A DNA stretch of 38,873 nucleotides from Flavobacteriaceae bacterium. GTDB lineage: Bacteria > Bacteroidota > Bacteroidia > Flavobacteriales > Flavobacteriaceae. Made by a program: the position numbers and the translations under genes. Positions 36,039-38,873 of this stretch are shown piece after piece (within the stretch, counting starts at the first letter, position 1; every line of letters starts with the position of its first letter). The DNA lies in the NCBI GenBank assembly GCA_024638225.1, contig JAHEKR010000011.1:1-38873 (forward strand), given 5' to 3'. The notes beneath the pieces are model-generated. The model was not told where the DNA came from, searched no databases, and worked only from the letters and a program-made list of their open reading frames with translations.

Positions 36039-37268
36039 ATGGTACTTCTTTATGACTTCCTTATCAAACTAAGCTGGGAAACAGCTTGGGCATGGTGGGC
36101 AAACTTTACTGCTGTTACAATTGCCCTACTAACAATTGCTTGGGTTTTTCGCGTTATTGCACGCTTTATTCTTGTAGGCATCTTTCACAAAGTTGCAGCC
36201 AAAACAAATACAAGTATCGATGACACCCTAGTTGAAAATAAACTTCCAAAAAACATTTCCCGTTTTGTTCCCTATTTCTTTTTGAGTGCTGTGTTACAGC
36301 CTTGGAGCAATGGAAATACAGACGTATTGGCTTGGCTAACCGCAATAGTTGATGTCTATGCCGTCTACATAGCCATCATCATTATTCGAAGTTTGTTGCG
36401 CAGCATACGACAAGAACTTCAAAAAAGACCACAGTTTAAGGACAAGCCCATTGATAGCTATATTCAAGTGGTCATGATTTTCCTATGGGGGATAGGACTA
36501 CTTCTCTCGTTTTCTATTTTTTCAGGTAAAGAGCTCGTATACTTTTTCACTGGTCTGGGTGCCTTGTCGGCGGTAATACTATTGGTGTTCAAAGACACCA
36601 TTTTGGGTTTTGTCGCCAGCATTCAAATCTCAGCAAACGATCTTGTTCGTATTGGCGACTGGATAACCATGGAATCCTACGGAGCAGATGGGGATGTGAT
36701 TGAAATAAATTTATCAACCATCAAAATTCAAAATTTTGATAAAACCATCACAACAGTCCCTACCTATAAATTATTATCAAGCTCCATTAAGAACTGGCGT
36801 GGCATGAGCGAATCTGAAGGCCGTAGAGTGAAGCGGCCCGTTTATATTCGCGCATCTTCTGTTCGCTTTTTAAATGAAAATGAGCTTGGCGTCATAGAGC
36901 AAGTTGAACGTTTTCGGGATGTTGTTAATGAAAAGAAAAAAGATATTCATGCCTACAATGAGGCGCTGAAAGCCGACACCTCCATCCCGTTAAATGGGAG
37001 AAACTTGACCAATCTTGGGTTGTTTCGTTCTTATATACAAACCTTTTTGGAGCAGCATCCAGAAATCAACCAAAATCTAACGGTTATGTGTAGGCAATTA
37101 CCACCAACGCCAAATGGGATTCCCTTAGAAGTGTATGCGTTTACTAAAGACAAACAGTGGAAAAATCACGAAAACGTCTCAGGTGACTTGTTTGATCATA
37201 TTATCGCTTCTGCTTCTTATTTCCATCTTAAACTGTTCGAATTCGAACAGCAAGCGCCAACAAGTTAG
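36039..37268 (+). CDS. MscS-family mechanosensitive ion channel
   Basis: GLGALSAVILLVFKDTILGFVASIQISANDLVRIGDWITM...GDVIEINLSTIKIQNFDKTITTVPTYKLLSSSIKNW. Confidence 0.94.
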   Translation: MVLLYDFLIKLSWETAWAWWANFTAVTIALLTIAWVFRVIARFILVGIFHKVAAKTNTSIDDTLVENKLPKNISRFVPYFFLSAVLQPWSNGNTDVLAWLTAIVDVYAVYIAIIIIRSLLRSIRQELQKRPQFKDKPIDSYIQVVMIFLWGIGLLLSFSIFSGKELVYFFTGLGALSAVILLVFKDTILGFVASIQISANDLVRIGDWITMESYGADGDVIEINLSTIKIQNFDKTITTVPTYKLLSSSIKNWRGMSESEGRRVKRPVYIRASSVRFLNENELGVIEQVERFRDVVNEKKKDIHAYNEALKADTSIPLNGRNLTNLGLFRSYIQTFLEQHPEINQNLTVMCRQLPPTPNGIPLEVYAFTKDKQWKNHENVSGDLFDHIIASASYFHLKLFEFEQQAPTS

Positions 37269-37404
37269 CCACATTTAACAACTTATAAAAGCAAAAAAGC
37301 CCTCCAATTCAGGAAAGCTTCTCATGGTTCATCTACGAACCTCTTGCAAACGATTGTCTGCAAGCAACACAACGCGTTAATTTTGTTACGTACTAATGTA
37401 CTTC

Positions 37405-37427
37405 GCGGTCTGGACGGGAATCGAACC
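37405..37427 (-). repeat. tRNA 3'-end-like attachment-site copy 1
   Basis: GCGGTCTGGACGGGAATCGAACC; the reverse complement GGTTCGATTCCCGTCCAGACCGC reads as T-arm plus 3' acceptor strand. No matching 5' acceptor half (CCAGACC on + strand) nearby. Confidence 0.7.
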
Positions 37428-37460
37428 CATTCATAATTACCTGATAATCAAACCCTTAAA

Positions 37461-37560
37461 AATACTCACTGTCCTCACTGAGGATTAAATTTGTTGATTT
37501 TTGTTCTCTGTGAGTACTCTGTAAACTTTGTGAGTACTATATTTACCAGAGGTGAGTACT
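37461..37560. repeat. Short iteron-like repeats: GTGAGTACT x3 direct plus one inverted near-copy
   Basis: GTGAGTACT at 37510-37518, 37530-37538, 37552-37560; AATACTCACT (inverted) at 37461-37470. Confidence 0.85.
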
Positions 37561-37650
37561 AAAAATCAGTTCAAATATAAATGAAATAAGTTTTAAATGA
37601 AAATATCATATTGAACCCACAACTTTTAGAGTCCCATAAAACCACAAATT

Positions 37651-37863
37651 TTATTTATTTGATAATACAAAATTGTAATATCTTAACCTATATTCTTTAT
37701 TTGATTCGTGGTCAACTTTAGGTAATTCCAATAATACTTCTTTTGGAAATTTTCTTAAACCACTTGGGGATGGGGATATTAGAGTAAATAACTTTGATGA
37801 ATTGTAAAGACTAGGACTTATAATTTTTTCAAAATGTTTTCTTACCCACTTTGTATTATAATT
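37651..37863 (-). pseudogene. Reverse-strand C-terminal gene remnant, no start codon
   Basis: 70 open codons on the reverse strand with coding-like composition: NYNTKWVRKHFEKIISPSLYNSSKLFTLISPSPSGLRKFPKEVLLELPKVDHESNKEYRLRYYNFVLSNK*; in-frame TAA just upstream and no ATG/GTG, so absent from the ORF track. Confidence 0.45.
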
Positions 37864-37898
37864 TTATAAATTAGTATGTAACTTAAAATATAAATAAT

Positions 37899-38060
37899 AT
37901 GATTAGTCAAACTTTAGATGGAATTGAAAACAGTTTAGATATTTTAGAAGAACGTTGTGATACCCTAGAAGATAATGGTGTGAATGTTGATAATTTTAGA
38001 ACCCAATTGAGTAACCTATGGGATGAACATGAAAAGTTAGTTGAATCACATGGAGATTAG
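37899..38060 (+). CDS. Small acidic, coiled-coil-like protein (53 aa), unknown function
   Basis: MISQTLDGIENSLDILEERCDTLEDNGVNVDNFRTQLSNLWDEHEKLVESHGD*; heptad-like hydrophobic spacing; 23 nt upstream of the next ORF. Confidence 0.55.
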   Translation: MISQTLDGIENSLDILEERCDTLEDNGVNVDNFRTQLSNLWDEHEKLVESHGD

Positions 38061-38083
38061 AACCCCTTCTTAAACATAATATA

Positions 38084-38659
38084 TTGAAATATACAATACA
38101 AGTCTTTGGTTATGAATGTGTTTTAAAATGTATGTCCATAAATGACAAAGATGTTGATTTGATAAAAAAAATCAATAACCCATGGGAAATCGAACAACAG
38201 TTTTTTGATTGTAGAGAGATTTTGTATGAAACTTCTTCTTTGTTTTTTGATAAAAATCTTCACTTTAAAATTCTAAATAAAGATGGGTTATTAGTGGATT
38301 CATTTAACAGTTATAAAATGGATTCAATTGGTGATGTAATAGGAGATGATAATTTTGGTTATGAAGATATTGTAGTAGACCCTAAATGGACTGATAAATT
38401 CAATAATACATTGTTGTTAATACATGAATACAAAGGATCGAATATGGAATTTATAATTGAAAGTAATTCAAAACCAATAAAAAACAATATTTCAACATCA
38501 TCACTTTGTATTGGTACCCCGAATGGAGATTATGACCTTCTAAAAACAATTGGATATAATGGAAAGTTACTAGAATGTGAGAATTTTTGGGGAGGTGTTG
38601 GTAAATGTTCTTATGTTAAAATATTTACTAATAATGGAAAAACAATCGAAATAGAATAG
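38084..38659 (+). CDS. Hypothetical protein (191 aa), unknown function
   Basis: Long AT-rich ORF with TTG start: MKYTIQVFGYECVLKCMSINDKDVDLIKKINNPWEIEQQFFDCREILYETSSLFF...; no family recognised. Confidence 0.65.
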   Translation: MKYTIQVFGYECVLKCMSINDKDVDLIKKINNPWEIEQQFFDCREILYETSSLFFDKNLHFKILNKDGLLVDSFNSYKMDSIGDVIGDDNFGYEDIVVDPKWTDKFNNTLLLIHEYKGSNMEFIIESNSKPIKNNISTSSLCIGTPNGDYDLLKTIGYNGKLLECENFWGGVGKCSYVKIFTNNGKTIEIE

Positions 38660-38723
38660 TTAATCAAAAAACAAAACTGGGAAGGATTCGAACCAGTCAA
38701 AAAATAGGATGATTTATAAAAAC

Positions 38724-38750
38724 ATAAACCCTTGATTATCAAGGGTTTAT
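38724..38750. terminator. Perfect 13-bp inverted repeat, possible minus-strand terminator
   Basis: ATAAACCCTTGAT-T-ATCAAGGGTTTAT; on the minus strand it is followed by GTTTTTAT. Confidence 0.6.
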
Positions 38751-38755
38751 AAATT

Positions 38756-38778
38756 GCGGTCTGGACGGGACTCGAACC
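38756..38778 (-). repeat. tRNA 3'-end-like attachment-site copy 2
   Basis: GCGGTCTGGACGGGACTCGAACC, 22/23 identical to copy 1 and in the same orientation; no complete tRNA fold available in the adjacent sequence. Confidence 0.7.
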
Positions 38779-38820: not shown

Positions 38821-38873
38821 TTATAACACGGTGTGTTATAAAATTGTTGGTTTTTATGTTACTCTGTGTTATA
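38821..38873. repeat. Second set of short repeats: GTGTTATA x2 direct plus one inverted copy
   Basis: TTATAACAC (38821-38829), GTGTTATAA (38833-38841), GTGTTATA (38866-38873, at window edge). Confidence 0.75.

Follow-up and report, generated by a model that had tools for sequence, protein, structure and literature searches.

The window, by which we mean the whole 38,873-nucleotide stretch that was analyzed, is the entire contig C65 of a metagenome-assembled genome of a member of the Flavobacteriaceae (1.48 Mb in 65 contigs, about 80% complete). Toward its right edge, a gene for an mscS-like mechanosensitive channel and a short intergenic flank are followed by a unit of 1,351 bp (37405-38778), referred to here as cassette 1, and by the beginning of a second cassette that is ended by the edge of the contig (Table 1). 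Cassette 1 is bracketed by two copies of a 23-bp block, GCGGTCTGGACGGGA[A/C]TCGAACC, found at 37405-37427 with A at 37420 and at 38756-38778 with C at 38771. The first-pass annotation had described these two blocks as differing in one base and as lacking the 5' half of a tRNA, and both points hold; ARAGORN finds no tRNA in the window. No third match is present in the window at up to three mismatches, and 100 dinucleotide shuffles yielded none. Across the genome, the sole further copy coincides with the 3' end of a complete tRNA-Asp(GTC) on contig C34 (99-173, minus strand), 98 bp from the left end of that contig and beside trxA, which bears out the earlier suggestion of a tRNA 3'-end attachment (att) site with tRNA-Asp as the target. 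With only three copies in the genome and none in the shuffles, chance or a dispersed repeat is ruled out as the source of the 23-mers. An Rfam scan for other RNA returned only sub-threshold chance matches.

Table 1 Features at the right edge of the window and the evidence for each.
Feature	Position	Strand	Evidence or remark
Gene for an mscS-like mechanosensitive channel, next to the insertion on its left chromosomal side	36039..37268	+	Pfam MS_channel; mscS beside the empty site in nine same-genus genomes
Chromosomal intergenic flank, abutting intact tRNA-Asp in relatives	37269..37404	.	Alignment and BLAST with L058-L066: identity of up to 87%, continuing through the att core
Left att copy, tRNA-Asp 3' end in reverse complement	37405..37427	.	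A at 37420 follows the left-end type
Left part of cassette 1; 447 bp shared at 99.3% identity with the forsetii cassette at 1940454 (NZ_OU342399.1)	37405..37851	.	BLAST
Arm-type repeat 1, GTGAGTACT	37510..37518	+	
Arm-type repeat 2, GTGAGTACT	37530..37538	+	
Arm-type repeat 3, GTGAGTACT	37552..37560	+	
Cut gene remnant, C-terminal 69 of 211 aa; gene whole in the forsetii cassette	37654..37860	-	tblastn 95.7% identity, E 2e-41
ORF of 53 aa, coiled-coil-like cargo	37899..38060	+	Similar-looking small ORF upstream of the homologous cargo in L112
ORF of 191 aa (TTG start), main cargo	38084..38659	+	BLASTP 27% over 190 aa, E 6e-18 (L112, 184 aa)
Cassette 1 right end, model R1	38675..38758	+	104.6 bits; sequence in R1 seed
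Degenerate T-arm-like motif CTGGGAAGGATTCGAACCAGTC, right end	38677..38698	.	Conserved across aligned right ends
Hairpin, 13-bp perfect stem	38724..38750	-	Stem covaries between right-end types
Internal att copy, between cassettes 1 and 2	38756..38778	.	23-bp match
Cassette 2 left end, TGTGTTATA type, ended by the contig edge	38775..38873	+	Model R2, 64 bits (in seed)
Cassette 2 arm-type repeat, TGTGTTATA	38832..38840	+	
Cassette 2 arm-type repeat, TGTGTTATA	38865..38873	+	

Nine genomes of the same genus carry an empty allele, in which mscS, intergenic DNA, intact tRNA-Asp and trxA follow one another. When aligned, the window and these nine relatives agree up to the core, where the window enters cassette DNA and the relatives enter the tRNA. 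As the empty allele is present in these genomes, the 1,351-bp unit is an insertion rather than a conserved part of the locus. Contig C34 has the tRNA and trxA as in the relatives, while the opposite side of its tRNA is a cassette right end (R1 72.8 bits, a sequence that is in the R1 seed). The left flank on C65 and the right end on C34 thus place an array of at least two cassettes between mscS and tRNA-Asp, in agreement with the stacking of at least two elements proposed earlier. The annotation had also put the intact tRNA to the right of the window; this stands by synteny but not by contiguity, as the DNA from 38873 to C34:1 is unassembled and the two contigs neither overlap nor are physically joined. 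A single additional cassette, about 1 kb long, would be enough to fill this gap, because both visible end types co-occur in TGTGTTATA-class cassettes. Given the position at the end of a contig, the incompleteness of the genome and the presence of repeats that break assemblies, it could be argued that the right end of C65 and its cassettes were drawn from another organism of the metagenome by faulty assembly or binning. We consider such an artefact highly improbable, as the left flank is orthologous to the nine same-genus genomes up to the core, as C34 independently terminates in a cassette right end, and as members of the family are also found in single-cell genomes and in one closed isolate genome. 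Contigs C16, C26, C34 and C62 of the window's genome (G000) each begin just past a tRNA 3' end, which would fit other tRNA-linked arrays breaking the assembly elsewhere.

The closed genome is that of Candidatus Arcticimaribacter forsetii AHE01FL (NZ_OU342399.1; hereafter forsetii), a cultured isolate of the NS5 marine group (PMC9122927). Its chromosome carries copies of the core at 1935806, 1937950, 1938228, 1939454, 1940454, 1942309 and 1945997, and the array ends at an intact tRNA-Asp at 1948295. The seven units measure 2144, 278, 1226, 1000, 1855, 3688 and 2298 bp, the 278-bp unit being without cargo, and complete cassettes outside this array range from 768 to 3138 bp. The possibility, raised in the annotation, that the window's unit is one of a longer tRNA-att array thus has a complete counterpart. 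Within the forsetii array there is no tyrosine recombinase, hence no neighbour of the IntI type, and an autonomous neighbouring element is not seen.

Besides the left part of cassette 1, its last 99 bp match the forsetii cassette at 1940454 (96% identity), while the DNA between the two ends is wholly different. The 118 bp from 38756 onward, which open cassette 2, are identical to forsetii 1939454 (BLAST 118/118) and 97% identical to sequence in G135, a genome of another genus. In forsetii a gene for 211 aa is intact, and most of its last 69 codons fall within the 447 bp shared on the left. Cassette 1 is therefore a chimera, which arose in an array through deletion or recombination. The dnaE genes of the two genomes are 69.7% identical, as against 99.3% for the shared 447 bp, and the cassette has therefore moved recently. 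Neither the 53-aa nor the 191-aa protein has a significant match in Pfam, PHROG or PADLOC. Single-sequence searches of viral contigs, GTDB contigs and phages with the 191-aa protein returned nothing, and its relatives surfaced only by way of the cassette ends: they lie in a G135 cassette (L112, 184 aa), in a forsetii cassette (L122:1078-1620, 180 aa) and, outside any identified array, in G192. Modelled with a mean pLDDT of 72.5, the 191-aa protein has a predicted fold similar to that of four uncharacterised Caudovirales proteins in BFVD (Foldseek E 3e-7 to 2e-6); a fold search of the PDB with the same model gave no significant match.

Cassette ends were searched with two models, R2 for the left end and R1 for the right end, each built from four seed sequences. 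The left end consists of the core followed by about 85-190 bp that can be aligned across classes. Most left ends contain two to four direct words of the form TGWGTWM (TGAGTAC, TGTGTTC, TGTGTAC, TGTGTTA, TGAGTTC), and with few exceptions these share one orientation; shuffled sequences give a mean of 0.1-0.85. This consensus came from the sequences on which it was tested and is descriptive, the shuffle control for exact 7-mers being weak by itself. The left end in G372 has one copy only, and several TGTGTTATA-class cassettes have a single inverted copy of the repeat near the right end. In att sites of the lambda type, the arm-type sites of the tyrosine integrase are expected where such repeats sit. 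The right end presents, in order, a T-arm-like motif GGRARKGAYTCGAACC, a hairpin and the core; in cassette 1 the corresponding CTGGGAAGGATTCGAACCAGTC fragment lies about 80 bp ahead of the right 23-bp copy. We considered whether this internal motif was a piece of another tRNA and rejected it, as no convincing source was found among the tRNAs of this genome. Two right-end types differ by paired changes in the hairpin stem (AAACCC/GGGTTT and AACTCC/GGAGTT), and pairing has therefore been kept. On the tRNA strand the hairpin occupies the position of a terminator, and that of cassette 1 is probably a terminator provided downstream of the tRNA.

The single difference between the two 23-bp copies is informative with respect to the point of strand exchange. 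The base at core position 16 tracks the left end that follows it, not the sequence that precedes it: it is A before CATTCATAATTACC (the window, forsetii 1935806 and 1940454), CATTTATAATTACC (L128) and ATTTAATATTTATC (forsetii 1937950), and also in an integrase-bearing element of G356 and a phage-like contig (L092), both described below, and it is C before the remaining left ends and in the intact tRNA. The difference between 37420 and 38771 is thus not random drift. As the same right-end type precedes both A and C cores, strand exchange takes place left of position 16, within GCGGTCTGGACGGGA. On this reading of the junctions, the crossover is left of 37420 and the chromosomal remnant in the window is at most 37405-37419; these positions are probably the displaced chromosomal part, with 37420-37427 supplied by the cassette. 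The internal T-arm motif serves as a secondary junction in L121:560, where a left end follows it immediately, with a similar join inside forsetii 1935806, and damaged junctions are found at L131, L125 and G356:7489. Decay would also produce such broken or secondary junctions.

The cassette family is present in at least ten further flavobacterial genomes. Scanning 400 genomes of the bacterial family for a tRNA-Asp 3' fragment without the 5' half identified 16 genomes besides that of the window, and in two of these, from other genera, the flanks are homologous at both ends around unrelated cargo. A member outside the seeds, from another genus (G135:C50), scored 64 bits with R2 and 92.6 bits with R1. 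A DNA pattern of the right end matched 15 loci in GTDB genomes, all of them titled as flavobacteria or uncultured Bacteroidetes. The distribution is patchy: the cassette protein is encoded in one of 17 genomes of the window's genus, the left end occurs in two of 23 genomes of another genus, and the right end in five of the 400, one of which (G204) was set aside because the core is absent, as were weak R2 matches in G372:C1, G139 and G427. In other arrays, too, trxA flanks the tRNA-Asp. Interiors consist mostly of orphan small ORFs, often acidic, and the recognisable cargo comprises serine hydrolases (Pfam Beta-lactamase), DUF1572/DinB, LRR and DUF4386 proteins and a DNA-ligase-like protein.

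Cassette ends are 90-100% identical between genera (97-100% at some), while the chromosomes differ by 30%. Ends of this length and similarity (100-450 bp, more than 90% identity) could also serve as substrates for RecA-dependent exchange, in which case cargo would be swapped by homology and not site-specifically, and the window and forsetii cassettes, with common ends and different middles, are what such exchange would leave. Nonetheless, the first insertion at an empty site has no homology beyond the core to work with, the breakpoints coincide, with few exceptions, with the tRNA core, and the number of cassettes varies between genomes, so that we regard homologous recombination as an improbable account of the family.

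Other integrations at the same gene were also encountered. Other flavobacterial genomes (L075-L077, L079, L080, L082-L091) hold displaced tRNA-Asp 3' fragments with different flanks, several of them with a GTTGACGATTTGTGA motif; the GTTGACGATTTGTGA-bearing and other differently flanked fragments apparently represent other integrating elements at tRNA-Asp. A large cassette or element in G135 (L112:3-5541) encodes an ATP-dependent DNA-ligase-like protein, two unknown proteins, with no PADLOC match, and a protein of 924 aa that is similar to a P-loop NTPase in G192. A repeat of about 55 bp, AACACACTTTAATT..TCTTTTCGAAAATCAGTATAA, occurs inside the G135 element at L112 positions ~6985 and ~8330 and also in a TGTGTTATA-class right end, which suggests that cassettes have been fused.

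The annotation had noted that the left unit lacks an integrase, and this extends to all of its sisters: among 18 complete cassettes, none matches any of six different integrases by ORF lists or tblastn, integrase fragments included. Transfer genes were likewise absent from the cassettes in ORF lists and in Pfam scans of part of the ORFs. The recombinases of the closed forsetii genome are two of Xer size, a weak 312-aa match, an integrase at tRNA-Ser and an integrase at tRNA-Phe; none is a tRNA-Asp integrase. In the cassette-bearing genomes, no integrase was found whose arms are of the corresponding TGAGTAC or TGTGTTATA class. For the window's own genome, the sole candidate that is not Xer-like is a 347-aa tyrosine recombinase adjoining a degenerate tRNA-like match (G000:C28:88499-89662; L177:8480-9663), which was rejected as a tRNA-Asp integrase as it is unmatched to the integrase of G356. 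Two other integrase matches, in the cassette-bearing single-cell genomes AG-916-G20 (G372; L135:1486-3276) and AG-422-M18 (G438; L136:1486-3288), proved to be SdhA-like ORFs and not integrases; their first ~100 residues are an in-frame fusion to an arm-DNA-binding domain, 50-51% identical to that of the G356 integrase.

G356 is a 3.1-Mb genome of a different genus, in which an element of 16.9 kb lies at tRNA-Asp (L115:7784 to L116:4779). It carries type I restriction-modification genes, a resolvase and, adjoining the tRNA, a 547-aa tyrosine integrase with Phage_integrase, SAM-like and Arm-DNA-bind_5 domains, and has TGTGTTC repeats at both ends. Both have their counterparts (74-77%) at the ends of the 278-bp forsetii unit, which is the strongest indication that the cassettes may be non-autonomous relatives of G356-like elements, and an element of the G356 type is likely to be the kind of helper involved.

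Taken together, the region 37405-38778 is quite probably a member of a family of very small mobile cassettes without integrase that insert at the tRNA-Asp 3' end and form tandem arrays in marine flavobacteria. We propose that a tyrosine recombinase supplied in trans, by a related autonomous element or by a phage with the same att site, would bind the arm-type repeats of the left end and the T-arm core and join the cassette att to the tRNA-Asp 3' end by a crossover within GCGGTCTGGACGGGA. The incoming cassette would restore the intact 3' end of the tRNA and add its hairpin terminator, while displacing the old 3' end outward; with the 3' end restored and a new terminator in place, the tRNA is therefore proposed to stay functional. 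Repeated insertion would build the array, which may usually grow beside the tRNA, with units presumably also able to excise and move on, and deletions and recombination between neighbours would swap or fuse cargo, as appears to have occurred in the window cassette. The sequences themselves show tandem cassettes at tRNA-Asp that have standard ends and no integrase and that have passed between genera with exchange of cargo; the integrase in trans, excision and the order of growth are inferred from them.

The same arrays might instead be graveyards of successive integrations, in which the units are immobile relics of tRNA-Asp elements that lost their integrase by deletion. The truncated gene in the window cassette, the 278-bp unit, which is little beyond the two ends of a G356-like element, and the damaged junctions noted above would all be expected of such relics, and decay is described as the origin of cis-mobilizable elements (CIMEs) in the case of other elements (PMC5704250). 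However, relics would not be expected to have ends nearly identical across genera with diverged chromosomes, many complete ORFs that are unrelated to one another lie between ends of the same types, no cassette retains a detectable integrase fragment, the terminator hairpin has been maintained through compensating changes, and decay of independent large elements would not readily yield such uniform units, mostly of 1-4 kb. We thus find the relic account rather unlikely, though likelier than the other alternatives.

A second question is whether temperate phages with this tRNA-Asp att site package the cassettes as satellites. A phage-like contig in IMG/VR (IMGVR_UViG_3300030104_005413; L092:5908-8690) does have a tRNA-Asp core of the A type next to an integrase of its own (398 aa), and the Caudovirales-like fold predicted for the 191-aa cargo also favours this reading. 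Nonetheless, cassette ends are absent from the 2.9 million viral contigs of IMG/VR, no window ORF matches a PHROG, packaging or replication genes are recognised in no cassette ORF, and the repeats that flank the L092 phage look unlike those of the cassettes. Packaging as phage satellites, whether of the PICMI, PICI or another kind, thus seems to us a doubtful explanation with little chance of being correct, and the preferred reading remains that of integrase-less cassettes served by a recombinase in trans.

These cassettes share features with several known systems. Tycheposons have genes for a tyrosine recombinase and for replication, and their hosts belong to another phylum. The flavobacterial cassettes resemble them and other marine integrative satellites in inserting at tRNA 3' ends in streamlined marine bacteria and in carrying cargo, but have neither of these gene sets. 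As in tyrosine-recombinase elements at tRNA genes generally, insertion at the 3' end restores the tRNA and leaves direct repeats, whereas an integrase of its own is present only in the G356 element. MITEs depend on a transposase and have no protein genes (PMC11389934); they too are non-autonomous and have the ends of an autonomous element, to which the 278-bp unit is similar, but the cassettes are site-specific and bear cargo.

CIMEs, among them the islands related to ICESt1/ICESt3 (Pavlovic 2004 and Bellanger 2011, as cited in PMC5704250), are described as decayed ICE or IME remnants that keep attL and attR without integrase or transfer genes, accrete in tandem at one site and are moved in cis with a neighbouring element (PMC5704250). 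The cassettes likewise retain both att sites in direct orientation and have no recombinase or transfer genes. With respect to descent by decay from an ICE or IME, the only unit that matches both ends of an integrase-bearing element is the 278-bp one, and the G356 element in question is at most a candidate ICE or IME. The cassettes differ from CIMEs in that the arrays show no autonomous neighbour and consist of units of 0.3-4 kb with standard ends across genera and many unrelated cargos. Of the known systems, CIMEs and the ssrA islands of Dehalococcoides come nearest. The latter stand in tandem after one RNA gene, each with a ~20-bp copy of that gene's 3' end as its boundary, insert in the T-loop region and include 15 islands without an integration module (PMC3146451). 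Some islands of those arrays, however, do encode a serine integrase, DsiB (PMC3146451), while the cassettes are far smaller, target tRNA-Asp and have no recombinase-like ORF, the only related tRNA-Asp integrase here being the tyrosine recombinase in G356. Integron arrays and CALINs offer a likeness of another kind, namely small promiscuous cassettes with shared recombination ends in arrays without integrase, to which the enzyme is probably supplied in trans (PMC11389934), although the flanking site seen is a tRNA 3' end accompanied by arm repeats, which would set it apart from attC/attI, the two ends are unlike one another and no integrase is adjacent. By analogy, the cassettes thus seem to work like an integrase-less integron array anchored at a tRNA, and the array seems to be assembled like CIME accretion or like the Dehalococcoides islands (PMC5704250, PMC3146451, PMC11389934). 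We found no description of such cassette arrays in the open-licence literature.

A bolder reading, which we put forward tentatively and would not place above its converse, is of a separate capture system analogous to integrons but acting on a double-stranded tRNA-Asp att site, in which a pool of integrase-free cassettes and matching tyrosine integrases in trans would circulate single genes among streamlined ocean flavobacteria; the arm-repeat classes of that system would be TGAGTAC, TGTGTTC, TGTGTAC, TGTGTTATA and TGAGTTC. In surface oceans the NS5 group and the streamlined marine flavobacteria related to it are found widely, while the routes by which they acquire genes are poorly known, and cassettes of about 1 kb with standard ends and without integrase at one tRNA would be a low-cost system of gene exchange. 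Such a system would be easily missed, as the arrays break assemblies, hold orphan ORFs and offer no recombinase as a marker. As one array belongs to an isolate in culture whose genome is closed, excision, variation between strains and the need for a helper can be tested directly, and the clean ends, T-arm core and arm classes are useful for studying tyrosine integrases that act in trans.

Related integrases (38-40% identity) were also observed in elements at tRNA-Phe, in forsetii (1899597-1907150; L141, L142) and in MOX_bin16 (L145). One of these elements is bounded by a displaced tRNA-Phe 3' fragment at 1907126, and a 150-aa cargo protein of the tRNA-Phe elements resembles the first ORF of the second cassette in G135.
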